Source of the DNA: Corynebacterium freneyi
GTDB taxonomy: Bacteria > Actinomycetota > Actinomycetes > Mycobacteriales > Mycobacteriaceae
NCBI RefSeq assembly: GCF_030408835.1
Contig: NZ_CP047357.1
Span: 620,001 to 684,000, forward strand
Reading direction: 5' to 3'
Length of the DNA stretch: 64,000 nt
Made by a program: the position numbers and the translations under genes
Notes under the pieces: generated by a model
The model's database searches: none
What the model was told of the DNA's origin: nothing
The model's input: only the letters and a program-made list of their open reading frames with translations
In this document: in pieces, positions 22,093-45,121 of the stretch
Layout of the letters: the number at the start of each line of letters is the position of its first letter
How positions within the stretch are numbered: the first letter of the stretch is position 1

Positions 22093-23748
22093 ATGGCCCA
22101 CGATCGCGCCGGGCAGCTGGCCCAGCCCCAGGATCTGATCGACGTCGCCGAACTGGTGACCGCGTACTACACGCGCCACCCCGAGCCGGGCAACCCCGAC
22201 CAGGCGGTGTCCTTCGGCACCTCCGGTCACCGCGGATCGTCGCTGGACACGGCCTTCAACGAGGACCACATCCACGCCACCACCCAGGCCATCGTCGACT
22301 ACCGCACCGGCCAGGGCATCGAGGGCCCGCTGTACATCGGCCGCGACACCCACGGCCTGTCCGAGCCCGCCATGATCTCCGCGCTGGAGGTGCTCACCGC
22401 CAACGGCGTCACCGTCATGGTCGACGCCCAGGGCCGCTACACCCCGACCCCGGCGGTGTCCCACGCCATCCTGCGGCACAACCGCGACCTCGACGGCGGC
22501 CCCGCCGGCACCGACAAGCGCCGCGCCGACGGCATCGTGGTCACGCCGTCGCACAACCCGCCGCGCGACGGCGGCTTCAAGTACAACCCGCCCACCGGCG
22601 GCCCCGCCGACGCCGACGCCACCGACTGGATCGCCGCCCGCGCCAACGACTACCTGGCCAAGGGGCTCGACGGCGTCAAGCGCCAGTCCGTGGAGAAGGC
22701 CGGCGACCTTCTGGTCAAGCACGACTACCTGAACAACTACGTCGCCGATCTGCCCAACGTGGTCAACATCGCGGCGATCCGCGACGCCGGCGTGAAGATC
22801 GGCGCCGACCCCATGGGCGGCGCGTCCGTCGACTACTGGGGCGCCATCGCCGACGCCCACGGCCTCGACCTCACCGTGGTCAACCCGCTGGTCGACGCGA
22901 CCTGGCGGTTCATGACGCTGGACACCGACGGCAAGATCCGGATGGACTGCTCCAGCCCCGACGCCATGGCGTCGCTGATCGGCAACCGCGACAAGTTCGA
23001 CGTCTCCACCGGCAACGACGCCGACGCCGACCGCCACGGCATCGTCACCCCCGACGCGGGCCTGATGAACCCGAACCACTACCTGGCCGTCGCCATCGAC
23101 TACCTCTTCGCCAACCGTCCCGGCTGGGCCTCCGACACGGCCGTGGGCAAGACGCTGGTGTCCTCGTCGATGGTCGACCGCGTCGTCGCCGACCTGGGCC
23201 GCAAGCTCGTCGAGGTGCCCGTCGGCTTCAAGTGGTTCGTGCCGGGCCTCATGGACGGCAGCGTCGGCTTCGGCGGCGAGGAATCCGCCGGCGCGTCCTT
23301 CCTGCGTCACGACGGCACCGTCTGGTCCACCGACAAGGATGGCCTGATCATGGACCTGCTCGCCGCGGAGATCATCGCCGTGACCGGCAAGACCCCGTCG
23401 CAGCGCTACGCGGAACTGGCCGACAAGTTCGGCGCCCCCGCCTACGCCCGCACCGACGCCGACGCCAACCGCGAGCAGAAGGCGATCCTGAAGAAGCTGT
23501 CGCCCGAGCAGGTCACCGCCGACGTCCTCGCCGGCGAGCCCATCACCGCCAAGCTCACCGAGGCGCCCGGCAACGACGCGGCCATCGGCGGCCTGAAGGT
23601 GACCACGGAAAACGCCTGGTTCGCCGCCCGCCCGTCCGGCACCGAGGACAAGTACAAGATCTACGCCGAATCCTTCAAGGGCACCGACCACCTCAAGCAG
23701 GTGCAAAACGAAGCAACTGCCCTGGTCAACGACGTATTGGGGGACTAG
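22093..23748 (+). CDS. pgm: Phosphoglucomutase (alpha-D-glucose phosphate-specific)
   Basis: Interconverts glucose-1-phosphate and glucose-6-phosphate. The 551-residue length is normal for the family. Seen: TSGHRGSSL near the N-terminus, the phosphoserine loop [17 protein letters not shown], the metal loop [10 protein letters not shown], the sugar-binding loop [10 protein letters not shown], and the phosphate-binding [14 protein letters not shown]. It starts after an AGGAGGA ribosome site. The final ~16 codons (from about 23701) use CAA, GAA, GCA, ACT, GTA and TTG, unlike the strongly C/G-ending codons before, and the stop shares CTAG with the prophage integrase stop. This suggests the 3' end was replaced on prophage integration. 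Confidence 0.95.
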
Positions 23749-23750
23749 CC
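23700..23750. other. Candidate prophage attachment site (attL) at the pgm 3' end
   Basis: Integrase and pgm converge and overlap by CTAG. Codon use in the last part of pgm shifts abruptly toward A/T-ending codons. Phage-borne core sequences that restore the end of a host gene behave like this. The matching attR is not in the window, so the core cannot be defined. Confidence 0.4.
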
Positions 23751-24872
23751 CGACTCTGCGGGACGGCCCCCAAAATCCCCGCCGTCCCGCACCAGTCCCG
23801 CAACAGCATCCACACCAGCCCGCGCCGCGTCCCACTGATCCGGCAAATGGTGCGAGTAAATCCGCGCCGTCACCGCCGGCGACGAATGCCCCAGCATCGC
23901 ACTCACCGTCGGCAGCGGCACCCCAGCGGCAAGCATCCGCGACGCGTAGAAATGCCGCAGGCAATGGAAATGCACCTCATCGGGCACCCCGGCGGCCTTT
24001 CTGGTCTCCGACATGAGGTGCGACACCCGCGCCGAATACAGCGGCCGCCCCCACGCACCAACCAGCACCCGCGCATCAAGGTCATCACCGCGCCCCTCCA
24101 GCGCCCGGGCGATGTCCAACGCCAGCCCCTCACTGATGGGCACATCCCGGCGCGACTTCTTCGTCTTCAGCTCGCGCAAGTCATCGCCGGCCTTTTCACC
24201 GGCTTGCACCCGCACGTGAATCGCCCGGCGCATCACATCAACGTCCCGCACCCGCAGGCCGCACACCTCCCCCGCGCGTAGCCCGGTTTCGGAGGCGATC
24301 TTCACCGCAAGTTTGAACCATGGGGCGTGCGCGTGTTCGACCAGTGCCCGCACCTGATCGATGCCTGGCACGACGATGTCGGCGGTTTCACCTACTGGGA
24401 AGCGCTTGAGCACGTCGCCGGGGTTGACGGAGATCAGCCCATCGGCCACCGCCCGCGACAGCAAGGTGCGCATCATCCCGACCCGCACCTGCACCGCCGA
24501 CGGTGACAGTGGCGTGCCACCTGCCCACGGCCTGCCGTCGCGTAGCTGCAGCGCCCACGATTCGAGGTGTGATCGGCGCACCGACGTCACAGGCATGGCC
24601 CCAAGGTCTCCGAGATTGATGCGCAGCTGGTACCGGTCGCGGCGGGTGCCGGGTTTGACTGCCAGCGCCTCATACTCGCGCACCAGCTGCTCGACGGTCG
24701 GGGCACCACGGGGATCGACCCATTCGCCGCGCCGTATCTCGCGCTCACGCTCCGCTTCCCATGCGGCGGCTTCGCGGCGGGTGTCGAAGGTTTTGCTGCG
24801 TTCGCGGCCTGCGGGGTCGCGGTAGCGGCCCACCCACCGTGTTTTGCCGTTTCGGATTCGTTTCTGCGGCAT
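23745..24872 (-). CDS. int: Tyrosine-type site-specific integrase
   Basis: Prophage integrase, 375 residues. An N-terminal arm-binding region ([18 protein letters not shown], the AP2-like start seen in actinophage integrases) and a SAM-like core-binding domain precede the catalytic domain. Its key residues are R199 ([13 protein letters not shown]), H303/R306 (HCLRH), H329 (LGHSS) and the nucleophile Y339 (ARIYSHH). It catalyses integration and, with a directionality factor, excision. It is the first gene of the prophage, on the minus strand and convergent with pgm. Confidence 0.95.
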
Positions 24873-30493: not shown

Positions 30494-31062
30494 CCACGAT
30501 GGATGACGTGCGAGCCCACATTGAGTGGCTGGGCGACCACGGCATGACCCAACGGCAAATCGCCCGGCTGCTCGGCCTGCACGATGACGTGATCTCCCGG
30601 GCACTGGCTGGACTGCGGGCACTGCCGCCACGGGTGATGGATCACGTGATGCGGATCAGCCCTGACGACGCCGAACTCGCCGAGACACGCGCCCCCAACG
30701 CCGACGAACGGGTCGAGGAGGAGTACTCCCATTTCGTCGGGCGCATGGGGTGGGACGACGCCACTTTCGCGGCGATGATGGCCGACGAACTGGACCTGAC
30801 CGTGGCGTCAGTGATGACGAAAATCCACGCCATTCAGCGACGCCGATCCCCGGTGGGGTTGTCCCGCCGGGATGTTGATCTGCTGGTGGGGGCGGAGTTC
30901 TCGGGGGATTTGCCGAGGCAGTTGGTGGGTGCTGCCCGGGCGATGGAGGCCAGGGGGTTCATCGAGGCGCACGTGTGGCGTGGCAAGGGCAACACCCGCT
31001 ACGCCGTTTTGACCGAGGAAGGTGCGGAGGCACTGAGAAAGGAACGCCAATGCCAGTCATGA
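30490..31062 (+). CDS. Helix-turn-helix protein with C-terminal winged helix
   Basis: A 190-residue protein with an N-terminal HTH (MTQRQIARLLGLHDDVISRA, LAGLRALPPR) related to the preceding regulator. A second, C-terminal winged-helix-like part ends ARGFIEAHVWRGKGNTRYAV, LTEEGAEALR. It overlaps the next (exonuclease) start by 13 bp. Likely early DNA-binding regulator; target unknown. Confidence 0.6.
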   Translation: MTTMDDVRAHIEWLGDHGMTQRQIARLLGLHDDVISRALAGLRALPPRVMDHVMRISPDDAELAETRAPNADERVEEEYSHFVGRMGWDDATFAAMMADELDLTVASVMTKIHAIQRRRSPVGLSRRDVDLLVGAEFSGDLPRQLVGAARAMEARGFIEAHVWRGKGNTRYAVLTEEGAEALRKERQCQS

Positions 31063-31922
31063 GCAACCCGCCGCGCCCCGGCACCCCGGAATGGCGCGGC
31101 ATGATCACCGCCAGCAAGGTTCCGGCGCTGTTGGGCCTGTCCCCGTGGTCATCGCCGTATGCCCTGTGGCACGAGATGTACGCCGGGCTGGAGCCGCCGG
31201 CGCTGGAGGGCGATCACCTGCGGTGGGGGCATATCGCCGAGCAGTCCCTCGTGGGCTGGTGGCTGGACGCGAATCCGGGGTGGCAGGCGGGCGCGGGGGA
31301 GATCACCTACACAGACCCCGGGCTGCCGTTCCCGAATGCGGTGACCCTCGACCGCAGGGCCAGGCGTGGGCGCAGGTTCCACATCATCGAATGCAAAACC
31401 ACCCGCGACATGGACCAATGGGGACGGCCCGGCGACCCCGACAGCATCCCCGCCCACTACCTCGCCCAGGTCATGTTCCAGATGGGAGTGTCCGGCATCC
31501 ACGAAGCCAGCGTCGTCGTCCTCGGCTACGGCACCCCGGAGATCCACGAGGTCGAGTGGGACGAGGAAGTGTGGGCGTCGATCGTCGCGGCTTGTGCCCG
31601 CTGGCACCACACCGGCCAAGCAGGCGACCCCCCGCCACTCGACGACCGGGTGGCCACCTACGACGCGGTCCGGGGCCTGCACCCCGACATCGACCGCGAC
31701 ACCGACATCCAGGTCACCCACGACCAGGCCGTCGCACTCCTCGACGCACTCGAAGAAGAAGCCGCCGCGAAAGCCACGGTCGTCGCCGCCAAAACCCGAC
31801 TGCTCGACCAGATGGGCACCGCCCGCCGCGCCCTCTCCGGCGACACCACCATCGCCACCCGCACACCCGGCCGCGGCGACTCCATCACGCTGCGCATCAA
31901 CCGGAAAGCCAACCTCACATGA
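31050..31922 (+). CDS. YqaJ-type viral recombinase / exonuclease
   Basis: A 290-residue lambda-exonuclease-fold protein. The N-terminal block (RGMITASKVPALLGLSPWSS, then PYALWHEM) and WGHIAEQSLVGWW carry the family E; an FHIIECKTT motif gives the ExK nuclease dyad; AHYLAQVMFQMGVSG follows. It resects phage DNA ends 5'-3' to feed the RecT-like annealing protein encoded downstream. The C-terminal ~80 residues form a charged helical extension. It starts inside the previous gene. Confidence 0.88.
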   Translation: MPVMSNPPRPGTPEWRGMITASKVPALLGLSPWSSPYALWHEMYAGLEPPALEGDHLRWGHIAEQSLVGWWLDANPGWQAGAGEITYTDPGLPFPNAVTLDRRARRGRRFHIIECKTTRDMDQWGRPGDPDSIPAHYLAQVMFQMGVSGIHEASVVVLGYGTPEIHEVEWDEEVWASIVAACARWHHTGQAGDPPPLDDRVATYDAVRGLHPDIDRDTDIQVTHDQAVALLDALEEEAAAKATVVAAKTRLLDQMGTARRALSGDTTIATRTPGRGDSITLRINRKANLT

Positions 31923-32566: not shown

Positions 32567-33421
32567 ATGACCACCAACCTCCCCGACACCACTGATGACC
32601 TGGCCACTGACGTGGAGCTGATGCCCACGAACACGGCCAACGCCCTCGACGACCAGGCATTCGCCAGCCTCGAAAAGTACGCCCGTTCGATGGACGTCGC
32701 CGACCGCATCGCCGAAGGCATCTACCGCACCGACTACGCCGGCCCCTTCAAGGGCAAGAAGGCCGACATGGCCATCGCCATCCTCTCCGCCGCCGGGCTG
32801 GGAATTCGCCCCGAAAACGTCGGCAAGGCCATCTACGTCGTCCACGGGTCCCCGGCCCTGTACGGCAAGACCGCCCTGGCGATTGCAAAGTCGCATGGCT
32901 ACAAGATGCGCAAGACCGAGGAATCCCCGCAGGTCGTCACCTGCGTTTTCACCGCACCGGATGGGGAAGAGTACCCGGTCACCTACACCTACGAGCGCGC
33001 CGAACGCGAAGGCTTGGTGAAGGGCAACGCGGCGCAGTACAAGTCCCGGCCGGAGAAGATGCTGACGTGGAAGTGTGTCGGCGAAGCCGCGGACATGTTC
33101 TTCCCGCACATCCTCAACAACCTGCCGGTGAAGGAGGACATCGAGCAGGGAGCCCCGGTGCGGGCGACTGCGACGCGCACGGACCGCAAGGGTGGGGCGC
33201 GGGCGGCACTGGCCGCCGCCGCCCAGCAGGCAGCCCAGCCGGAACCGCAGGACACCGTCGTCGATGACGTTCTGTCGTCCATCATCGCCGAGATCCAGGA
33301 CGCCCCCGACCGGCCGGCGATCACGGAGATCATGGCACGCGACGAGGTGAAGGCCCTCGACAGCGACGACCACGATCAGGTGAGTGCCGCCGCCAACACC
33401 CGCTGGCAGGCCCTCGCATGA
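32567..33421 (+). CDS. RecT-like single-strand annealing protein
   Basis: A 284-residue protein. The core (DMAIAILSAAGLGIRPENVG, then KAIYVVHGSPALYGKTAL) and the pattern RPEKMLTWKCVGEAADMFFP match phage RecT-family recombinases, which anneal single strands exposed by the partner exonuclease. The C-terminal ~80 residues are disordered and acidic, as often in the family. The gene lies in an exonuclease-RecT-SSB module and overlaps the next gene by ATGA. Confidence 0.75.
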   Translation: MTTNLPDTTDDLATDVELMPTNTANALDDQAFASLEKYARSMDVADRIAEGIYRTDYAGPFKGKKADMAIAILSAAGLGIRPENVGKAIYVVHGSPALYGKTALAIAKSHGYKMRKTEESPQVVTCVFTAPDGEEYPVTYTYERAEREGLVKGNAAQYKSRPEKMLTWKCVGEAADMFFPHILNNLPVKEDIEQGAPVRATATRTDRKGGARAALAAAAQQAAQPEPQDTVVDDVLSSIIAEIQDAPDRPAITEIMARDEVKALDSDDHDQVSAAANTRWQALA

Positions 33422-33840: not shown

Positions 33841-34100
33841 CCGCCCCGCAGCTCGCCCTATTCGCCCCGACGGTGATGCTGTCCGAATGCCGCCCCGGCG
33901 ACACCATCCGGTTCACCCACCAGAACTTGGCGATGACACTCCACCAGGTAGAGGTCATCGGCCCGCATGTGCGCGTGCTCGGCATGTGGCACCCGCCCGA
34001 CAAACCCCCGCCCCCGTACAACCCCGTCGCCACTGGCTCAGGGGGCCACGGCGGCGACGACACGCAAGTAGAAATCATCCATCGAAAGGAGCCCAGATGA
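33837..34100 (+). CDS. Hypothetical early protein
   Basis: An 87-residue, GTG-started protein with a small beta-rich domain (PGDTIRFTHQNLAMTLHQVE) and a proline/glycine-rich tail. It is coupled to the previous gene (GTGA) and to ssb (ATGA). Function unknown. Confidence 0.55.
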   Translation: MTAPQLALFAPTVMLSECRPGDTIRFTHQNLAMTLHQVEVIGPHVRVLGMWHPPDKPPPPYNPVATGSGGHGGDDTQVEIIHRKEPR

Positions 34101-34525
34101 GGCCCATCAACCAGATCACGATCACCGGCCGAGCCGGCCATGATGCGGAGCACCGCGCCACCGCATCAGGGAAGGACGTGATGAATGTCCGCATCGCCCA
34201 CACCCGCAGCCGCTTCAACAAGGAAACGAAGCAGTGGGAGGATCAGAACACCACGTGGTGGAACGTGTCACTGTGGGACAAGAACGCCGCCGCGATTGCC
34301 CGCGAGATTCCGAAGGGCACGAACCTTTTGGTGACGGGGCGGGCGGAGATGCGGGAGTACCAGCGCAATGACGGTTCCACTGGGGTGTCGTTGGATTTGC
34401 TGGCCGAGCATGTCGCGGTGGCGCCGGATGCCCGCCCGAAGGGGGTTGTCGGCGGGTGGGAGGAAAACCAGGCGGCGGGGGTTGTGTCCGGGCCGTGGGG
34501 TGGGGAAGGGCAGCCTCCTTTCTGA
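34097..34525 (+). CDS. ssb: Single-stranded DNA-binding protein
   Basis: A 142-residue OB-fold SSB: INQITITGRAGHDAEHRATA, WWNVSLWDKNAAAIA, and GTNLLVTGRAEMREYQ. The C-terminal tip ends QPPF rather than the acidic DDIPF, so partner binding may differ. It is the last gene of the recombination module; its stop overlaps the cas6e-like start as TGATG, which places the CRISPR-like cassette in the same transcript. Confidence 0.93.
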   Translation: MRPINQITITGRAGHDAEHRATASGKDVMNVRIAHTRSRFNKETKQWEDQNTTWWNVSLWDKNAAAIAREIPKGTNLLVTGRAEMREYQRNDGSTGVSLDLLAEHVAVAPDARPKGVVGGWEENQAAGVVSGPWGGEGQPPF

Positions 34526-35100
34526 TGCTCCTCACCACGATCACCCTCAATCGTCGCGCTCGGGGGCTCACCCGCGACTCGCAGGCTATGCACCGCACCA
34601 TCGCCCACGCCCTTGACGGGCGGGGGCTTTGGGCCACACCCACCGCCCAGTCCCTGGTCGTCCAGCACACTGCCCCCATCGACTGGGGCCAGCGACTCCC
34701 CGGCATCATCGCCCACTCCCACACCATCGAGCGCCGCGCGCATCAGCCCGGGACACAGGTCGAGTGGGCGCTGATCGCCAATCCCACCGCCGCGATCGTC
34801 CCGCCGGGATCACCGCGCGGCACCCGCGGGAAACGCCGCGCCCTGCCGCCGGAGAAGTGGAACTCCTGGGTCGAGCGGAAACTCACCCCCGCACTCGACA
34901 TTCACCGCATCGACGGCACCGCACTACCCACCGCAGTCGGAAAGCGCCACGGCGCGCGCACCATTCACCGCCGAGTCCTTTTCACCGGCCTCGCCACCGT
35001 CGCCGACCCGGACGCCCTCACCCGGCTGCAGGACACCGGTGTCGGCCCCGGTAAGGCCTACGGATGCGGGCTACTCATCACCCAGGAGGTGACCCTATGA
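34525..35100 (+). CDS. cas6e: Cas6e-like crRNA endoribonuclease
   Basis: A RAMP-fold protein of 191 residues, close in length to Cas6e (CasE/Cse3). Family features: an MHRTI motif with H23 at the position of the Cas6e catalytic histidine; TQVEWALIANPTAA; the basic stretch RGTRGKRRALP; WVERKLTPALDIHRI; ARTIHRRVLFTGLATVADPD; and the C-terminal glycine-rich loop TGVGPGKAYGCGLL (residues 171-184), diagnostic of Cas6e. Cas6e cuts CRISPR repeat hairpins to release crRNAs and stays bound. Here it is the first gene of a type IV-like cassette, TGATG-coupled to ssb. I see no CRISPR array in the window, so its substrate is unknown. No key residue appears lost. Confidence 0.85.
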   Translation: MLLTTITLNRRARGLTRDSQAMHRTIAHALDGRGLWATPTAQSLVVQHTAPIDWGQRLPGIIAHSHTIERRAHQPGTQVEWALIANPTAAIVPPGSPRGTRGKRRALPPEKWNSWVERKLTPALDIHRIDGTALPTAVGKRHGARTIHRRVLFTGLATVADPDALTRLQDTGVGPGKAYGCGLLITQEVTL

Positions 35101-35840
35101 CCGCCGCTCAGACCCTGCTGTGGGACACCGCCGGACGCCCCGGCGTCGACGGCGCAAAGGGCAAGCTGCTCAAGCCCGAGCCCGGGGTGTGCGCCATCAC
35201 CGGCGAGCACTTCGACGTCACCGCCGACGCGCGCCGCGCTCTGGGGGAGAACTTCACCGACCAGTCCCTCTGGGCCTGCCACTCCGGGCGCGTGGGGCCC
35301 GCCGCCCTGTGGTGCTGCTCCGGCACGGGGAAGAGGTCCCCCCGCCTGTGGACATGGGTCTGCGCCCCCGGCGAGGTGCTGCCCGACTCGCACGAGAAAG
35401 CCCCCTACCGGGCCCCGGGCCTGTGCCTCACCAACCGGGCGAATACCCGCCCCGTCATCGACATCCTCGCGCACCCGCCCAAAGGGGAGTGGGTCTGTGC
35501 CGTCGCCGTGTCCGGCCAAAAGCACGTCCTGCCCTACGCCACCACCAACAACGGCGACGGGGAGTGGACGGTCCGGATGGAGGACACCACCCTGACCCAC
35601 ACTCCCGGCCAGTGGCGTCACGTCCTCGGCCACGTCCTCGCACTCCGACGCCTCGGAATCCCCGCCGACGCCATCAAGACCGGGGAACCCCGATTCATCA
35701 AAACCCCCGACGCCCTCACCGAATGGCGGAACCACTCCACGGCCCTCGCCCCCTATGCCGGGGCACCCATCACCGACCTCGCGCTCTGGTGCGCGACCAA
35801 ACCCATCCTGGAGGACACCAATGCCTACCCCCACCCCTGA
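35097..35840 (+). CDS. csf1: Csf1-like large subunit of a type IV CRISPR complex
   Basis: A 247-residue protein. Near the N-terminus, VCAITGEHFD (C32) and FTDQSLWACHSGRVG (C61), with WCC (C73, C74), recall the cysteine-containing Csf1 module with the pattern CxxxG, F-T/S-D, then a second cysteine pair. The first pair is reduced to CxxT. Later segments (LTNRANTRPVIDILAHPPKG; AVAVSGQKHVLPYATTN) fit the Csf1 helical body. Position between cas6e and a Cas11/Cas7/Cas5 trio supports the call more than sequence alone. It overlaps cas6e by ATGA and the next gene by 20 bp. Confidence 0.7.
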   Translation: MTAAQTLLWDTAGRPGVDGAKGKLLKPEPGVCAITGEHFDVTADARRALGENFTDQSLWACHSGRVGPAALWCCSGTGKRSPRLWTWVCAPGEVLPDSHEKAPYRAPGLCLTNRANTRPVIDILAHPPKGEWVCAVAVSGQKHVLPYATTNNGDGEWTVRMEDTTLTHTPGQWRHVLGHVLALRRLGIPADAIKTGEPRFIKTPDALTEWRNHSTALAPYAGAPITDLALWCATKPILEDTNAYPHP

Positions 35841-36240
35841 CCAGCTCGACGCCGCGACGATCGACCTCGTCTTCGCTCTGCGCGACTCCCTCACCAGCGA
35901 CGGCCCGTCGCTGATCGACTTCTGGGCAGACCGCGCGACCACCGCCATCGCCACCGCCGCCGCCGGATCGGACACCGCCGGCCAGGCGATCACCACCGCG
36001 TGCCGGAAGCTGCAGATCGACACCCTCGCGGCGAATGCGGCCCCGGTCGCACGGCGTGCCGCCGAGATCATCGACGCCGACTACCAGGCGTGGGCACGCC
36101 ACGTCGACCAGTCACTCGTGTACATCGTCGCCCTCGCCCGGTTGGAGCGTGACAGTCGCAAGCGAGGCAAGAAGCCCACCGCCCCGACCGCCCCCACGCC
36201 CGTCCCCACCACCGACTCGTCCGAGGAGATTCCGTTCTAA
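35821..36240 (+). CDS. Small helical protein, candidate Cas11 small subunit
   Basis: A 139-residue protein that is almost entirely alpha-helical (DAATIDLVFALRDSL; GQAITTACRKLQIDTLAANA; DQSLVYIVALARLERDS) with a disordered, proline/threonine-rich tail ending SSEEIPF. The tail end resembles an SSB-type acidic tip. Size, helical make-up and position between csf1 and csf2 match the Cas11 small subunit of type IV-B cassettes. Its start overlaps csf1 and its stop overlaps csf2 (TAATG). Sequence alone does not prove the family. Confidence 0.55.
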   Translation: MPTPTPDQLDAATIDLVFALRDSLTSDGPSLIDFWADRATTAIATAAAGSDTAGQAITTACRKLQIDTLAANAAPVARRAAEIIDADYQAWARHVDQSLVYIVALARLERDSRKRGKKPTAPTAPTPVPTTDSSEEIPF

Positions 36241-37106
36241 TGGCCACCATCACTCCCACCCCGAAGACCATGATCACCCTGACCGCGACGCTCACGTCCC
36301 CGCTGCACCACGGGGCGGGGGCATCTGGCAACACCAGCCTGCTGCGCACCCAAGATGTCGTCCAGCCCGATGGGACCGTCGCTCGCGTCCCCTTCCTCTC
36401 CGCCGCATCCATCCGCCACGGCCTCCGCGACGCCCTCGCCTGGCACCTCGCCCACACCATCGGCATCAAGGAAGGCAGCCTCACGAAAACCGCCGTAGAC
36501 CTCCTGTGGACCGGAGGAGCCGTCACCTCCACCGGCGCACGCACCGACCTCGACATGATGCGCCGCGTCGAGGAACACCTCCCGGCCCTGGCGATGCTCG
36601 GCTACGCCGCCAAGAGCGACATCATCACCGGCACGCTTCGCGCATCCGACATGATCCTCGCCTGCGCCGAAAACGACCACCGCCTCCCCGAAGCCCTGCG
36701 GGGCCGCCGCCGCGCCGCCGCCTACCGCAGCGAGGAATTCGGCACCCGCCACGACCAATCCGCATCCCCCGTCGGCCGGTACCTGGACCTCGCCACCGAC
36801 ACCGGCGCGACCGCCCAGATGATCTGGGACACCCAGGTCATCGCCACCGGGGCGGAACTCCACGGCGATCTGTCCCTCACCCCCGCGGCCACCGACCAGC
36901 ACCACACCGCCCTCGGAGCAGCGCTGGCACTGTGGGCCCCCGACGGACAGGCGATGCTCGGAGCAAAGACCGGACAGGGCATGGGCCGCGCCACCATCAC
37001 CGGCCCCGACTGGGCAGAATGCGCCACCCACCTCGACACGTGGACCACCCACGTCGAAACCCACGCCGACGACATCCGGGCCCTCATCACCGACCTGGGA
37101 CAGTAA
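36240..37106 (+). CDS. csf2: Csf2 (Cas7-family) backbone subunit
   Basis: A 288-residue RAMP protein. The start (ITLTATLTSPLHHGAGASGN, residues 12-31) carries the Cas7/Csm3-like PLHxGxG motif. FLSAASIRHGLRDALAWHL is the characteristic S-I-R-x-x-L-R segment. The C-terminal MLGAKTGQGMGRATITGPDW is the glycine-rich end of the fold. In type IV complexes Csf2 forms the helical filament along the guide RNA. The start is coupled to the previous gene (TAATG). Confidence 0.85.
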   Translation: MATITPTPKTMITLTATLTSPLHHGAGASGNTSLLRTQDVVQPDGTVARVPFLSAASIRHGLRDALAWHLAHTIGIKEGSLTKTAVDLLWTGGAVTSTGARTDLDMMRRVEEHLPALAMLGYAAKSDIITGTLRASDMILACAENDHRLPEALRGRRRAAAYRSEEFGTRHDQSASPVGRYLDLATDTGATAQMIWDTQVIATGAELHGDLSLTPAATDQHHTALGAALALWAPDGQAMLGAKTGQGMGRATITGPDWAECATHLDTWTTHVETHADDIRALITDLGQ

Positions 37107-37108
37107 TC

Positions 37109-37702
37109 ATGGACGTGACAATCACCGCCCACCTCGACACCCCCGTCGTCGGCGACCTCGGCCCACTGGACGGGCCACTGTCATGGGCATCGTGGCAAGA
37201 CCACCTCGCCCGAGGACTGCCCGTCCCCGAGCTCACCGACGACCACGCCCCCGACTTCCCCCTGCCGCTGGGCCGGTGGGAGGAGGCCGGGGTGTGGGGA
37301 TGGCGCATCTCCGCCCCCATCGGGGAGCCCGTGCACTACTCGACGCACGAATCCCGCCGCCGACCAGCCACCGGCCCCATGGCCGCCTACACCAAGGCGC
37401 GGGAACACCATGCCGGCCTTGGCCCGATGAAGGCGAAAAACGTCATCCTGTCACAGGCCCACCACCTGGCCATCCAGTGGCACGCCGACACCACCGACCG
37501 CGACGAGCTCGCCCGCCTCCTCGGCATGATCACCCACCTCGGGGCCCGCCACCGAGACGGCAAGGGCCACGTCGCCCGGTGGGAGATCACCGAAGGCCCC
37601 GCCGGCGGGTGGCGCAAGCGTCCGATGCCCACCTCGGGGGGCCGGATGATGCGGGCCCGCGCACCCTACTGGCACCCCACCGAAAGGACACCATGCGCAT
37701 AG
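37109..37702 (+). CDS. csf3: Csf3 (Cas5-family) subunit
   Basis: A 197-residue RAMP protein, 2 bp after csf2. Seen: LGPLDGPLSWASW near the N-terminus (Csf3-like DGxLxW), the central YSTHESRRRPATGPMAAYTK and NVILSQAHHLAIQWHA segments, and the glycine-rich loop THLGARHRDGKGHVARWEI (142-160), which is the hallmark of Csf3. Cas5-family proteins cap the 5' end of the crRNA complex. It overlaps the methyltransferase gene by 10 bp. Confidence 0.83.
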   Translation: MDVTITAHLDTPVVGDLGPLDGPLSWASWQDHLARGLPVPELTDDHAPDFPLPLGRWEEAGVWGWRISAPIGEPVHYSTHESRRRPATGPMAAYTKAREHHAGLGPMKAKNVILSQAHHLAIQWHADTTDRDELARLLGMITHLGARHRDGKGHVARWEITEGPAGGWRKRPMPTSGGRMMRARAPYWHPTERTPCA

Positions 37703-38595
37703 CCCACGGCACCCGCGACGAGAATGGCAAATGGCACGCCGACAACCCCGCCGACTACCCACCGATGGACGTCCACGGACAGCTACCCTGGTCAGTCCTC
37801 GACCAGTCGGCAGCCCACTGGCAGACCCGCAAGTCGTGGTGGATCGACCAGGGTGTCGATGACCTCACCCCGAGGGCGCATGCGGCGTCGATGATCAACA
37901 CCGGCCGCCACGGCAAGCTCAGTGGCGGTGTCTCGCGCTTTGACCCGTTCCTGACCGAGCTACTCGTCACGTGGCTGTCCCGCCCCGGCGACAGTATCTA
38001 CGACCCGTGCGCCGGCGGGCCGGTGCGTGGCATCGTCTCCACCTACCTCGGGCGCGGGTACCTCGGCGTCGACCTGAGCGCCACTCAGCTCGACGCGAAT
38101 CGCCGGGCCGCCACTCGGTGGGGGCTGCACCCGACGTGGACCCACGGCGACGGTCGTGACCAGCATGTCCCCGACGGTTCGGCGGGCATGGTGCTGTCGT
38201 GCCCTCCGTACCACAACCTCGAAAAGTACTCGGATGACGAGCGTGACCTGTCGGCCATGCGGTGGCCCGCCTTCGTGGACGCCCACCAGGCCATCATCCA
38301 CCGCGCCGCTGATGCCCTCGCCGAGGACCGATTCCTCGCATGGGTCATCGGCGATGTCCGCGACTACAAGGGCCACCTCCGCGGACTCCCCGCGATCGCC
38401 GCCACCCATATCCGCGCTGCGGGGCTGCACATCACCAACGAGCTGATCCTCATCGCCCCGCCCGGCCTGCGAGCGAAGACGATGCGCATCCCCTGGACCG
38501 CCGCACGCACCACCACGAGGCGTCACCAGCACATCATCGTCGCCGTGAAAGGCGACCGGAAAGCCGCGACGAGGAGGATCACCGATGCTGCTTGA
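37693..38595 (+). CDS. N4/N6-type DNA methyltransferase in the csf operon
   Basis: A 300-residue AdoMet-dependent methyltransferase. Motif I is YDPCAGGPVRGIVSTYLG (103-120), with YLGVDLS as the AdoMet-ribose strand, and the catalytic loop is SCPPYHNLEKYS (169-180), an SPPY-type motif for amino-methylation of A or C. No specificity or helicase domain is attached. It sits between csf3 and the CysH-like gene with overlaps on both sides (10-11 bp), so it belongs to the cassette transcript. It could protect phage DNA or act in the system; no partner restriction enzyme is seen. Confidence 0.85.
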   Translation: MRIAHGTRDENGKWHADNPADYPPMDVHGQLPWSVLDQSAAHWQTRKSWWIDQGVDDLTPRAHAASMINTGRHGKLSGGVSRFDPFLTELLVTWLSRPGDSIYDPCAGGPVRGIVSTYLGRGYLGVDLSATQLDANRRAATRWGLHPTWTHGDGRDQHVPDGSAGMVLSCPPYHNLEKYSDDERDLSAMRWPAFVDAHQAIIHRAADALAEDRFLAWVIGDVRDYKGHLRGLPAIAATHIRAAGLHITNELILIAPPGLRAKTMRIPWTAARTTTRRHQHIIVAVKGDRKAATRRITDAA

Positions 38596-39340
38596 CTCCC
38601 CCCGTCTCAAGCGCGGCGACCGTGAGCACTGGGCGATGCTGGAGCGCTACGACCATCGCCTCGGCGTGGGCCTCGACGCCAAGGAGGAGATGGCCCTGGG
38701 CCGTATCCAGGAGTGGTGGGAAGCCGGTGGCGGGGTGTGCTCGGTGTCGTGGGGCAAGGACTCCACGGTCGTCGCGCACCTTGTCGGAATGTCGGGCCTG
38801 CCTATCCCCATCGTGTGGGTGCGCTCGGATCCATTTGAGATGCCGGAATGCGAGGACGTGCGGGACAGCCTCCTCGGCCTGCATCCGCACCTCGCTTACG
38901 AGGAGCGAATCGCGGTGCTGCGGAGCCCCAAGCGCGGGATGCCCGGCTACGAGGCCCACCAGGCCAACCCCGACCGTCGGCACCAAGACGTGCTCGGGGA
39001 GCTGATTCGCGAGCGGTACGTCTCCGGTGTCCGAGCAGAGGAGTCGGCCATGCGCCGCGCCTCCGCACGGTGGCATGGGGCGGTGTCGAAGCGGACGTGC
39101 CGGCCGATTCTCGACTGGAGCGGGGCGGATGTCTTCGCCTACATGGCGTCGCGTGGCCTGCCGGTGCACCCCGCCTACGCCATGTCCTACGCGGGGCGGC
39201 TGGACCGCAGGTGGCTGCGGGTGCATCCGCTGTGCTCTCACCACGAGGAATCAGGGGTGCATGGGCGGGATATGAGCTCGTGGGAGGACGACTACTACGG
39301 CGACGCGATCGACGACGCCCTCCGGCGAGCGTCGTCATGA
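38585..39340 (+). CDS. CysH-like (PAPS-reductase family) ATP-pyrophosphatase
   Basis: A 251-residue adenine-nucleotide alpha-hydrolase. The P-loop is VCSVSWGKDSTVVAHL (SxGKDS, residues 55-60), with IPIVWVRSDPFEMPECEDVR, GVRAEESAMRRASARWH, then RPILDWSGADVFAYMASRG and RVHPLCSHHEE. The C-terminal ECGLH motif of true PAPS reductase is missing, so classical sulfate reduction is unlikely. CysH-like proteins are the recurring accessory of type IV-B CRISPR cassettes; their role is unknown. Overlaps the methyltransferase gene by 11 bp. Confidence 0.85.
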   Translation: MLLDSPRLKRGDREHWAMLERYDHRLGVGLDAKEEMALGRIQEWWEAGGGVCSVSWGKDSTVVAHLVGMSGLPIPIVWVRSDPFEMPECEDVRDSLLGLHPHLAYEERIAVLRSPKRGMPGYEAHQANPDRRHQDVLGELIRERYVSGVRAEESAMRRASARWHGAVSKRTCRPILDWSGADVFAYMASRGLPVHPAYAMSYAGRLDRRWLRVHPLCSHHEESGVHGRDMSSWEDDYYGDAIDDALRRASS

Positions 39341-39355
39341 GAGGAGTGATTTTTC

Positions 39356-39670
39356 CTGAGCATCCGCGCTGTCGCGTGGGTGAGTGACCAAGTGCGGGAT
39401 GTGACGCCGTCGGAGCGGCTGGTGCTGTATTTCCTGGCTGACAAGGCGCGGGAGCACGGCGGGTGTCAGCAGGCGTGGCCGTCGGCGACGTACATGGCTG
39501 ACGCCCTCGGGCTGGACCGCAAGACAGTCCGGTCGGCGCTCGGGAGGCTGCAAAAGCGGGGGCTGATCTTGCGGGGGGATCAGTCCCTTGTGACTCGCCG
39601 AGGAGGGGGGAAACGTCCGATTGCTTGGGCCTTGTCGGTGCCTGACGAGGGGGCCGCGAATGGGGAATGA
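39356..39670 (+). CDS. Replication-type winged-helix protein, possible CTG start
   Basis: A protein of about 104 residues with DVTPSERLVLYFLADKAREH, SATYMADALGLDRKTVRSAL and GRLQKRGLI, the winged helix of phage replication-initiator or helicase-loader proteins. The in-frame start LSIRAVAWV matches the common actinophage N-terminus MSIRAVAWA, and its first codon would be CTG at 39356, 9 bp after AGGAG. The first standard start (GTG, 39380) removes this conserved part and has no ribosome site. The C-terminus runs into iteron-like repeats, as in lambda O with its origin. Confidence 0.65.
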   Translation: MSIRAVAWVSDQVRDVTPSERLVLYFLADKAREHGGCQQAWPSATYMADALGLDRKTVRSALGRLQKRGLILRGDQSLVTRRGGGKRPIAWALSVPDEGAANGE

Positions 39671-39756
39671 GACCCCATTCGGCCTCGGATCGAATGGGGA
39701 ATGAGGCCCTATTGAATGGGGAATGAGGCCCTATTCGAATGGGGAATGAGACCCCA
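39658..39756. repeat. Four iteron-like hairpin repeats, probable replication origin
   Basis: GAATGGGGAATGAG(A/G)CCC(C/T)AT occurs at 39658, 39692, 39714 and 39737 (start spacing 34, 22 and 23 bp). Each copy has ATGGGG and CCC(C/T)AT arms with a 7 nt loop; the changed base in copies 2 and 3 keeps a G-U pair in RNA. Spacing near two helical turns, directly after an initiator-like gene, suits iterons. Intervals are too short for a CRISPR array. Confidence 0.65.
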
Positions 39757-39790
39757 TAAAGACAGTAAGTCAACCAGTAAAGAACCCCGA

Positions 39791-42088: not shown

Positions 42089-42468
42089 CCCCCGAAGAAG
42101 CCCGCGACCTACTCGACGGCGCGGCCCCCGGAGAATGGCAGTGGGACGATACCGGAAACGTCGCCGCCGTGGACGGCGACGGGTGGGAGCATGTCGCCGA
42201 CTACGTGTACGAGGAGGACGGGGCCTTGATCGTCGCCGCCCCGGGGATGGCCGCCATGATCGCCGGAATGCGCGCCGAATACGCCGTGCAAAACCGCGTC
42301 GGCGATAAGTGGCTGTACGAGGACGATGACGGACGCAACCTCGCCCCCTACGACAGCCACCGCATCGCGTGGTGGCCCGACCCAATCCCACAATCAGACA
42401 TCGCAGATCGCGGAGAAGGAATGGCCCGCATCGTCCGCCGTTACGTCACCACCCCGGAGGAAGTATGA
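42085..42468 (+). CDS. Repeat-family hypothetical protein B1
   Basis: A 127-residue acidic protein. The N-terminus MTPEEARDLLDGAAPGEWQW and the end ARIVRRYVTTPEEV recur in the protein at 43590; the end also recurs at 43955. This family is common in actinophages, without a known function. Confidence 0.6.
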   Translation: MTPEEARDLLDGAAPGEWQWDDTGNVAAVDGDGWEHVADYVYEEDGALIVAAPGMAAMIAGMRAEYAVQNRVGDKWLYEDDDGRNLAPYDSHRIAWWPDPIPQSDIADRGEGMARIVRRYVTTPEEV

Positions 42469-42875
42469 CCCTGCCGTACCAAGGCACCAAGCCCACCCGC
42501 GCCCACCACGACGACGCCGGCCTCGACCTCACGTCCGCCGAGACTCTGGTGATCCCCAGTGGGCAGCGTCGCACCGTCCGCCTCGGCACAGCCGTAGCGA
42601 TCCCCACCGGTCATGTCGGCCTGCTGTGCCCCCGGTCAGGGCTCGCCGCCAAGCATGGGATCACCACGCTGACGGTGCCGGGGATCATCGACTCGGGCTA
42701 TCGGGGCGAGTTGCGGATCGTGCTGTTCAACACCGACCCCGCCCCCTACCAGGTGCGACGGGGCGACCGCATCGCCCAACTCGTCATCGTGCCCTTCACA
42801 CACCTGGCCCCCGTGGCCCAACCCCTCGACACCGCCGACCGAGGGCCCCAGGGCTTCGGCTCCACCGGCACCTAG
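42465..42875 (+). CDS. dut: dUTPase, copy 1
   Basis: A 136-residue trimeric dUTPase: HDDAGLDLTS (motif 1), CPRSGLAAKHG (2), VPGIIDSGYRGELRIVLFNT (3), RGDRIAQLVI (4), and the C-terminal P-loop-like RGPQGFGSTGT (5). It hydrolyses dUTP to dUMP, keeping uracil out of phage DNA. A closely similar dUTPase is encoded at 44711. Confidence 0.93.
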   Translation: MTLPYQGTKPTRAHHDDAGLDLTSAETLVIPSGQRRTVRLGTAVAIPTGHVGLLCPRSGLAAKHGITTLTVPGIIDSGYRGELRIVLFNTDPAPYQVRRGDRIAQLVIVPFTHLAPVAQPLDTADRGPQGFGSTGT

Positions 42876-44388: not shown

Positions 44389-44714
44389 CTCGCCCGGAGG
44401 CCCGCGCCGCTGAAGTTATCGACCACATCGGCGACGAGCCATCGAACGTGATCGCTGCCGCACTCGCCACGGAAGGGTTGCTCACCCCCGGGCCGCAGAT
44501 CATCCGCACCCGCGAGGAACTAGCCGCCCTCGACCCCGACACGCTCGTCACTGACGCGCTGCCGCGCCACGATGACTTCCCTTCCCCGATGATCGCCGCG
44601 CTGCCCGCCCCCGTCGCCTACCGGCTCAACCTCACCTGGCAAGGCCCAGTGGTGGTCATCGCCACGGGTGATCAGGTCCGCGCCGCACGACAAGCACTGG
44701 AGGCCACCGAATGA
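44385..44714 (+). CDS. Hypothetical protein
   Basis: A 109-residue protein; the central part (PQIIRTREELAALDPDTLVT) has the look of the small phage proteins beginning with an RT-x-EEL-x-x-LPP-x-T motif. It is coupled to the second dUTPase gene. Function unknown. Confidence 0.55.
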   Translation: MTRPEARAAEVIDHIGDEPSNVIAAALATEGLLTPGPQIIRTREELAALDPDTLVTDALPRHDDFPSPMIAALPAPVAYRLNLTWQGPVVVIATGDQVRAARQALEATE

Positions 44715-45121
44715 CCCTGCCGTTCCAGGGAACCCCGCCCACCCGCGCCCACCCGGATGACGCCGGACTCGACCTACGCGCCGCCACCGACATCACGATC
44801 CCCTCCGGCGCCCACGCCCTCGTCCCCACCGGCACCGCAGTCGCCATCCCCGCCGGCCACGTCGGCATGATCTGCCCCCGCTCCGGGCTGGCCGCCAAGC
44901 ACTGCGTCACCGTGCTGAACGCCCCCGGCATCATCGACGCCGGATATCGCGGCGAGATCGGCGTCATCCTGATCAACCACGGGCGCGCCACCGCCCGCAT
45001 CTCCCGTGGCGACCGCATCGCCCAACTCGTCATCACCCCATTCACGCACCTGACCCCCGTGGCCCAGCCACTCACCACCACCGACCGTGGGGCAGCAGGG
45101 TTCGGCTCCACCGGCACCTAG
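44711..45121 (+). CDS. dut: dUTPase, copy 2
   Basis: A 136-residue dUTPase with all five motifs: HPDDAGLDLRA, CPRSGLAAKHC, APGIIDAGYRGEIGVILINH, RGDRIAQLVI, RGAAGFGSTGT. It aligns end to end with copy 1 but with many substitutions, so the duplication is not recent or copy 2 was acquired separately. The DNA after both stops (TAGAAAGGACAC) is the same. Confidence 0.93.
   Translation: MTLPFQGTPPTRAHPDDAGLDLRAATDITIPSGAHALVPTGTAVAIPAGHVGMICPRSGLAAKHCVTVLNAPGIIDAGYRGEIGVILINHGRATARISRGDRIAQLVITPFTHLTPVAQPLTTTDRGAAGFGSTGT

Follow-up and report, generated by a model that had tools for sequence, protein, structure and literature searches.

What use would a phage have for an enzyme that processes the RNA of CRISPR (clustered regularly interspaced short palindromic repeats) arrays if it carries no array of its own? 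The question is raised by a prophage of Corynebacterium freneyi, analysed here in a window of 64,000 nucleotides that spans 620–684 kb of the complete 2.88 Mb genome; coordinates below are those of the window. Calling of open reading frames (ORFs) finds seven overlapping ORFs on the + strand across 34525–39340, in the order cas6e, csf1, cas11, csf2, csf3, DNA methyltransferase and cysH-like gene. Judged by its sequence, the cassette is a type IV-B-like effector cassette, a variant with Cas6e. Its function is read here, with a confidence slightly short of even, as that of a phage-borne anti-CRISPR: Cas6e and a nuclease-less Csf complex would capture the CRISPR RNAs (crRNAs) of the host and so starve Cascade.

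A type IV-B-like cassette headed by Cas6e

The cassette begins with cas6e (34525..35100, + strand, 191 amino acids), a type I-E-family crRNA endonuclease gene whose product matches Pfam PF08798 at 3.8e-20, above the family cut-off, the PADLOC Cas6/Cas6e models at 5e-22 and 1e-21, and CasE/Cse3 in the Protein Data Bank (PDB) at 6e-6. His23 aligns to the MHRT stretch of the solved Thermus Cse3 (1wj9); we take it to be the catalytic histidine, and the enzyme is predicted to be active. Next come csf1 (35097..35840, +), encoding a type IV large-subunit-like protein (PADLOC Csf1_0_IV, type IV Cas8/Csf1, 2.5e-22; NCBIfam TIGR03114 just 0.029, far under the cut-off), and cas11 (35821..36240, +), encoding the type IV small subunit (PADLOC typeIV_Cas11, 8.4e-56). 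The Cas7 backbone subunit is encoded by csf2 (36240..37106, +; PADLOC typeIV_Cas7, 7e-105; TIGR03115 4e-4, under the cut-off), and its best PDB match in a sequence search is the solved type IV-B Csf2, 7jhy (1.5e-10). The Cas5 subunit, encoded by csf3 (37109..37702, +), matches PADLOC at 3e-22 and TIGR03116 at 6e-14, again under the cut-off; its predicted structure (predicted local distance difference test score, pLDDT, 82) finds type IV-A Cas5 subunits as its best PDB matches in Foldseek (8rc3_F, 8.5e-13; 7xg1_B, 2.3e-11). Csf1, Csf2 and Csf3 do not reach the full NCBIfam cut-offs, which marks the csf clade as divergent. The window nevertheless holds the set that makes a system type IV: a Csf2-type Cas7, a Csf3-type Cas5 and a Csf1-type large subunit.

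The last two genes encode an accessory N6/N4-type DNA methyltransferase with an SCPPY motif (37693..38595, +; PF01555 3.6e-6, phrog_12517 4e-72) and a cysH-like ATP-pyrophosphatase, CasCysH (38585..39340, +; PF01507 5e-10). The predicted structure of the latter (pLDDT 92) is closest to phosphoadenosine phosphosulfate (PAPS) reductases and also matches adenosine phosphosulfate reductases and other ATP-pyrophosphatases (flavin adenine dinucleotide synthase, TtuA). Its loop, S-W-G-[KR]-D-S, is kept in 18/18 copies, and no cysteine is invariant across the 18. C172, which is kept in 16/16 sequences of a second alignment and is A in L002 and L013, lies outside ECG[IL]H, the C-terminal motif with the catalytic cysteine of PAPS reductase (CysH); that cysteine is absent from the cysH-like protein. 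The lack of an invariant cysteine agrees with the description of CasCysH in the available excerpt of PMC8175902.

A first-pass annotation made from the letters alone had named seven overlapping genes of these identities, and both the ORFs and the profile searches agree with it. It had proposed profile searches and a test for the RAMP (repeat-associated mysterious protein) fold in the products of the genes at 36240 and 37109 as checks: type IV PADLOC models are matched by Csf1, Cas11, Csf2 and Csf3 and PF08798 by Cas6e, and a RAMP fold is supported by the structural model of Csf3 and by the sequence likeness of Csf2 to a solved homologue. Its ‘CysH P-loop’ is present as a loop, but one of the ATP-pyrophosphatase type.

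Several traits of subtype IV-B are found together here. The window has cas11 and a cysH-like gene, repeat scans of the window find no CRISPR array, and there is no cas1 in the whole host genome; nor is there a DinG, a mark of type IV-A, among the cassette ORFs. However, published accounts of IV-B, as far as excerpts of them were available (PMC8175902, PMC7937560, PMC11656645), describe it as having neither an array nor a crRNA-processing enzyme. Cas6e lies at 34525–35100 in the window and is present in 18/18 other distinct loci, and the cassette is therefore a variant. The earlier label ‘type IV-B-like’ thus holds for cas11, cysH and the absence of DinG and adaptation genes, but not for Cas6e.

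Those 18 distinct loci are what remained of nine in named genomes and 14 in IMG/VR once five duplicates had been removed; the queries were the window’s own Csf2 peptides, a search that leaves distant IV-B unsampled. In all 18, csf1, csf2 and csf3 are present with Cas6e ahead of them, and cas11 and cysH are present in 17, L022 giving no tblastn match to either. Of 19 Cas6e copies, 18 retain the probable catalytic histidine; the residue is R in L020, and L022 is poorly aligned at its N-terminus. In L009 (5710–6789) and L021 (729–1784), Cas6e is joined to a C-terminal cysteine-rich, zinc-ribbon-like domain of ~150 residues. A tree separates the phage Cas6e from the hosts’ own type I-E Cas6e with 100/100 support, so the phage enzyme is not a recent host gene. 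Relatives of the methyltransferase occur in ten of the 18 loci by tblastn, in variable positions, and L003 has a different kind of methyltransferase beside the cassette. The place of the cassette in the phage also varies: it adjoins ssb/RecT in the window and L001, and terminase-like genes, named by eye, in L004, L011 and L013. The csf block therefore seems to travel as one unit.

Among known systems, the type IV-B complex of Mycobacterium sp. JS623 (7jhy; PMC7937560, excerpt) shares csf1, cas11, csf2 and csf3 with the cassette, and likewise has no adaptation genes or effector nuclease; a cysH-like neighbour is typical of the subtype and is present here too. Unlike the JS623 system, the cassette has Cas6e at its head in 19/19 distinct copies, and its carrier is a phage rather than a megaplasmid. 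The nearest Csf2 in a plasmid collection is less than 35% identical. Plasmid relatives were considered and set aside: the csf2 matches are distant and the Cas6e matches there are annotated as type I-E genes. The Fuxivirus IV-B of Bathyarchaeia viruses (PMC10848311) is likewise a virus-borne set of csf genes with a cysH-like gene, but it has a mini-array and the text of that paper does not mention Cas6 (0 occurrences), whereas the present clade has Cas6e and mostly no array. Type IV-A (IV-A3) also pairs a Cas6e-family processing enzyme with a type IV effector, and it is IV-A Cas5 that the Csf3 model matches; in the excerpts available (PMC8175902, PMC7937560), however, IV-A is described with DinG and an array of its own but without Cas11, whereas the cassette has cas11 and cysH and no DinG, and no array was found in the window.

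Type IV systems in some prophages are already in print (PMC11656645, excerpt). No Cas6e-bearing IV-B cassette and no link of one to type I-E self-targeting were found in the open-access literature, a search that did not take in Pinilla-Redondo 2020 and Moya-Beltran 2021; a IV-B locus with Cas6 may already have been tabulated, since PADLOC has type IV Cas6 models. In a Skermania phage SPI1 isolate (KR011061), orf40–43 correspond to csf1-cas11-csf2-csf3, all annotated as hypothetical; orf39, upstream of csf1, matched no PADLOC Cas6 model.

Host spacers against resident csf prophages

The reading of the cassette as an anti-CRISPR draws on the hosts of its relatives. Cas1e is found in all ten other lysogen genomes of the clade (eight intact, two split, the latter in G195 and Frankia), and in ten of 11 when the host of the window is counted; in the genus background it is above the cut-off in 93 of 242 genomes. 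The co-occurrence of csf and type I-E alone is only suggestive. Two remoter Csf2 matches in the class sample, in G475 (a fragment) and G645, came without Cas1e. Arrays were readable in eight of the ten Cas1e lysogens, G005 and G195 having no readable array on the fetched stretches. Spacers were matched, with at most two mismatches, to the csf region of the same genome, the search covering only the host’s own sequence (40–74 kb per host).

Altogether 98 of 471 own spacers match the resident csf region, in seven of the eight lysogens. The counts are 26/99 in C. ulceribovis, 27/114 in Corynebacterium G102, 26/75 in C. striatum, 8/28 in Scrofimicrobium, 5/83 in C. phocae and 5/43 in Phytoactinopolyspora, with 1/21 in Cutibacterium porci and 0/8 in Frankia. 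For comparison, an available excerpt of PMC6990116, citing Stern et al., gives a general self-targeting figure of 0.4% of spacers. The protospacer-adjacent motif (PAM) is consistent: AA precedes the protospacer in 60 of 71 cases outside G102, against 4% by chance, and A-C does so in 22 of 27 within G102. These spacers look like real type I-E acquisitions. When seven hosts were first tabulated against one another, six had spacers matching the csf prophage of their own genome and, at the same threshold, none had any matching that of another host; Scrofimicrobium was unmatched with 17 kb scanned. Self-targeting is unusually dense in G102 (L077/L092), G235 (L081) and G220 (L080), where 26–27 own spacers are directed at one resident prophage each.

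Control sets were drawn from 21 csf-free Corynebacterium genomes with a type I-E cas1 above the cut-off and an SPP1-type portal, of which 18 were used (G078, G108 and G140 were left out). Addition of the second prophages of G126, G179 and C. ulceribovis gave 21 array/prophage sets, and removal of seven without a readable array (G047, G126 twice, G150, G157, G179 twice) left 14; each control stretch covered 35–40 kb around the portal, with prophage borders unchecked. In these csf-free prophages 8/960 spacers match, in three of the 14 sets, and the second prophage of C. ulceribovis is matched by 0/99 of the host’s spacers. With both groups cut to 40 kb, the csf count is 66/471 and a Mann-Whitney test at the lysogen level gives p 0.001; the rate of lysogens hit, 7/8 with csf vs 3/14 without, gives p 0.006. 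Spacers are not independent of one another, so these lysogen-level tests are the ones that matter. None of the control hosts’ spacers matched any of seven csf prophages of other hosts, and among 1325 spacers compared with the window prophage there is one near match (control G058, 3 mismatches).

The type I-E operons of several self-targeted hosts appear intact. All of cse1, cse2, cas7, cas5, cas6e, cas1 and cas2 are above the profile cut-off in C. ulceribovis, and Cas3 domains are present in G102 and C. porci. Judged by the lengths of their ORFs, the operons of C. ulceribovis, G102, C. striatum (whose cas3 contains unknown letters) and Scrofimicrobium look complete.

Seven prophages, six with host spacers against them and that of the window, were compared by blastp (E 1e-4), with the C. 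ulceribovis prophage ORFs as queries, overlapping antisense ORFs excluded, C. striatum entered as three stretches and Scrofimicrobium absent. The only families common to all seven are Cas6e, Csf1, Cas11, Csf2, Csf3, CysH and the phage single-strand DNA-binding protein (SSB), and the csf cassette is for that reason the simplest candidate for the cause of tolerance.

The source of guides and the readings of the cassette

If the complex is RNA-guided, its guides need a source. A dedicated scan found no array in the window, in nine of the ten phage contigs examined, in the regions from C. striatum and Scrofimicrobium or in six further loci. Five host type I-E repeats matched the phages no better, to within two bases, than reversed-repeat controls did. 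In C. striatum, a 63-base repeat present in four copies proved to be in-frame coding sequence. Lacking an array, most of the phages would need guides from an outside source; the type I-E arrays of the host are the one to which the self-targeting data point. The first-pass annotation had envisaged a working multi-subunit RNA-guided or RNA-binding complex in the early operon of the phage; a self-contained RNA-guided system is unlikely, since the window and nine of ten relatives yielded neither an array nor a type I-E-like single repeat.

The tenth contig is different. In G257, the csf prophage contig of Phytoactinopolyspora, nine 36-nt repeats not of type I-E form and eight spacers (L063 12875–13493; host G007 contig C1, ~88.67–89.28 kb) follow endolysin, holin and tail-fibre genes. 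One of the eight spacers matches the host type I-E locus at 36/36 positions, 0.8 kb upstream of cas3, in an ORF of no assigned function; the comparison was limited to the fetched stretches of the host genome. The repeat is absent from all other csf loci searched. No attachment (att) site was found for this prophage, so the array may lie just outside its border.

The preferred mechanism would run as follows. Phage Cas6e would bind and cut host type I-E pre-crRNA, the guides would be loaded into the nuclease-less Csf2/Cas11/Csf1/Csf3 complex, and the host Cascade would be left short of guides; the cysH-like protein is predicted to adenylate some target in the pathway. It would be the Csf genes, rather than another gene, that give tolerance, the complex would form on host crRNA, and Cas6e would be its capture step. 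The host of the window has neither cas1 nor cas7e; there the cassette would lie idle, and its use would be in other hosts. That a mobile element persists despite many perfect, PAM-flanked host spacers is generally accepted as pointing to an anti-CRISPR (PMC6990116, PMC10810201); such persistence is seen in the related lysogens, not in the host of the window. The parts suit a crRNA trap: a member of the Cas6e family, which would bind type I-E stem-loops, and a Csf filament devoid of a nuclease. The JS623 complex, without a Cas6 of its own, ignored type I-E crRNA even though a type I-E Cas6 was supplied (excerpt of PMC7937560), a result that fits a trap. The G257 phage contig also counts in favour, since it carries a guide against the host type I-E region.

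A number of points weigh against capture. The evidence is association only, and a small undetected anti-CRISPR protein (Acr), differing between phages, could act instead. The host of the window itself has no cas1 and no cas7e, C. porci and Frankia contribute one matching spacer and none, and the csf-free prophage of G025 (array L107, prophage L108–L109) is hit by six of 97 own type I-E spacers. Within the genus alone the co-occurrence with Cas1e is weak (5/6 vs 95/236, split genes counted; Fisher p 0.08). The cas operon of C. phocae is truncated, and an intact cse1 frame is missing from Phytoactinopolyspora; in these two, tolerance may stem from a broken CRISPR system. In the excerpt of PMC7937560, type I-E crRNAs were not enriched on the published IV-B complex with a type I-E Cas6 co-expressed, and IV-B is reported, citing Pinilla-Redondo, to co-occur negatively with other CRISPR systems. 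The conservation of CysH is unaccounted for by a plain sponge. Finally, the array of G257, not being of type I-E form, indicates that one relative or more may be independent of guides from the host; it lowered confidence in capture from an even chance to slightly below one and raised that of phage-encoded guides.

Of the other explanations, one with an appreciable though still low probability is that another phage gene is the anti-CRISPR and that the csf cassette handles non-CRISPR RNA, as the JS623 plasmid complex appeared to do. The solved IV-B complex bound mixed RNA (PMC7937560, in the excerpt available), small, fast-evolving Acr genes would be missed by a search for shared families, and the G025 prophage is self-targeted without csf and is itself a candidate carrier of another anti-CRISPR; yet this reading would account neither for a Cas6e conserved mostly without an array nor for self-targeting that falls mainly on csf prophages, across four actinobacterial genera, and leaves the second prophage of C. 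ulceribovis untouched. It is improbable that type I-E interference no longer works in the hosts, being broken or silent, so that matching spacers would be harmless to any prophage. The truncated operon of C. phocae, the lack of an intact cse1 in Phytoactinopolyspora and the split cas1 of G195 and Frankia would fit it, whereas the operons that look complete in C. ulceribovis, G102, C. striatum and Scrofimicrobium, the near absence of targeting in the csf-free prophages of the 14 control sets, and PAM-flanked stacks of 26–27 spacers, which point to active acquisition, do not.

The remaining explanations give the complex a guide and a target. It is unlikely that the Csf complex uses host crRNAs to sit on the phage’s own protospacers and to shield or chemically mark them, a reading in which the cysH-like protein and the methyltransferase would carry out the modification. 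This would rest on the same facts as the sponge, to which it adds the strict conservation of the cysH-like ATP-pyrophosphatase and the presence of DNA methyltransferases of at least two kinds beside the cassette; but the methyltransferase, in ten of 18 other distinct loci, is not universal, and both the target of CysH and DNA binding by the clade are only hypothetical. A more specific form, RNA-guided self-modification with stolen guides, in which the cysH-like adenylating enzyme (and the methyltransferase where present) would mark the phage’s own protospacers, is slightly less probable; it would explain why CysH is conserved and why Cas6e occurs mostly without an array, and more host spacers would then give the phage better protection. 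Least probable of all is that the complex is guided by phage-encoded crRNA, for example to silence host type I-E genes, the guides being mostly lone or degenerate units. The predicted activity of Cas6e and the G257 spacer upstream of cas3 agree with this, but the window and nine other phages have no array, the G257 repeat recurs in no other locus and its array, besides perhaps lying beyond the prophage border, may serve another host system. Furthermore, apart from runs of N in C. striatum, none of the other six prophages shares a 20-base word with the type I-E genes of its host, and the window’s own repeats resemble origin iterons.

Capture of host crRNA, to return to the favoured reading, has parallels in phage biology, known here from excerpts of the papers cited. 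RNA anti-CRISPRs, or Racr (PMC10651486, PMC11656645), likewise divert the Cas/crRNA machinery of the host with parts of CRISPR systems, but they are lone repeat RNAs that trap Cas proteins, whereas in the csf phages crRNA would be trapped by proteins, and the search for a lone type I-E repeat gave none. The Acr-protected prophages of Xanthomonas albilineans (PMC10810201) resemble the csf prophages in that many host spacers against a resident prophage are tolerated; there, small proteins block Cas3, whereas the shared candidate here is a multi-subunit Cas-like complex. In the excerpts available, the function and RNA cargo of IV-B are an open question (PMC8175902, PMC7937560, PMC11656645), and guide-RNA sponging has been proposed before, mainly for plasmids, although the one purified complex took up no crRNA (PMC7937560). 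A phage clade with Cas6e, mostly arrayless, in hosts with stacks of spacers against it offers a concrete and testable source for the missing guides. A 2024 review considers it an enigma that viruses have apparently recruited CRISPR RNA pieces but not Cas proteins as inhibitors (PMC11656645, excerpt); if capture is true, a multi-subunit Cas complex would be such an anti-CRISPR. The naturally self-targeted lysogens are ready material for a test.

The prophage around the cassette

The prophage setting named in the first-pass annotation is borne out by integrase, terminase, portal, major head and tail genes in the window. The integrase gene lies at 23745..24872 on the - strand (phrog_1, 1.7e-63); the right end of the prophage lies beyond the window. 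The early region that holds the cassette also encodes, on the + strand, a RecE/YqaJ-type exonuclease (31062..31922; PF09588 6e-12, phrog_434 1e-56) and a RecT-like annealing protein (32567..33421; phrog_4171 1.6e-35). The cassette itself is located between the SSB gene (34097..34525, +), whose stop codon overlaps the start of cas6e (TGATG) and which has homologues in the six other prophages compared, and the gene for a short winged-helix, RepO-like replication-initiator-like protein (39380..39670, +; phrog_1032 2.2e-13). In Corynebacterium phage Bran, a related phage, the annotated genes at the equivalent place do not include a csf cassette.

Directly after the RepO-like gene stand four near-palindromic repeats (39657..39760, +). 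The GGGGAATGAG that occurs in them resembles ATGAG in type I-E repeats, and they were considered as a substrate for Cas6e; this was rejected, as in the related prophage L001 the RepO homologue is followed by four different palindromes, although the right flank, CATAAAGACAGT, is the same. Judging by this comparison, the repeats are likely to be origin iterons rather than a CRISPR or Cas6e substrate, and the exchange of palindromes at the same place beside the same flank means that origin repeats seem to turn over fast. An Rfam search gave no match in the window, and no common structure was seen in a listing of hairpins around the cassettes. Further downstream, the prophage carries two dUTPase genes ~2 kb apart, at 42465–42875 and 44711–45121.

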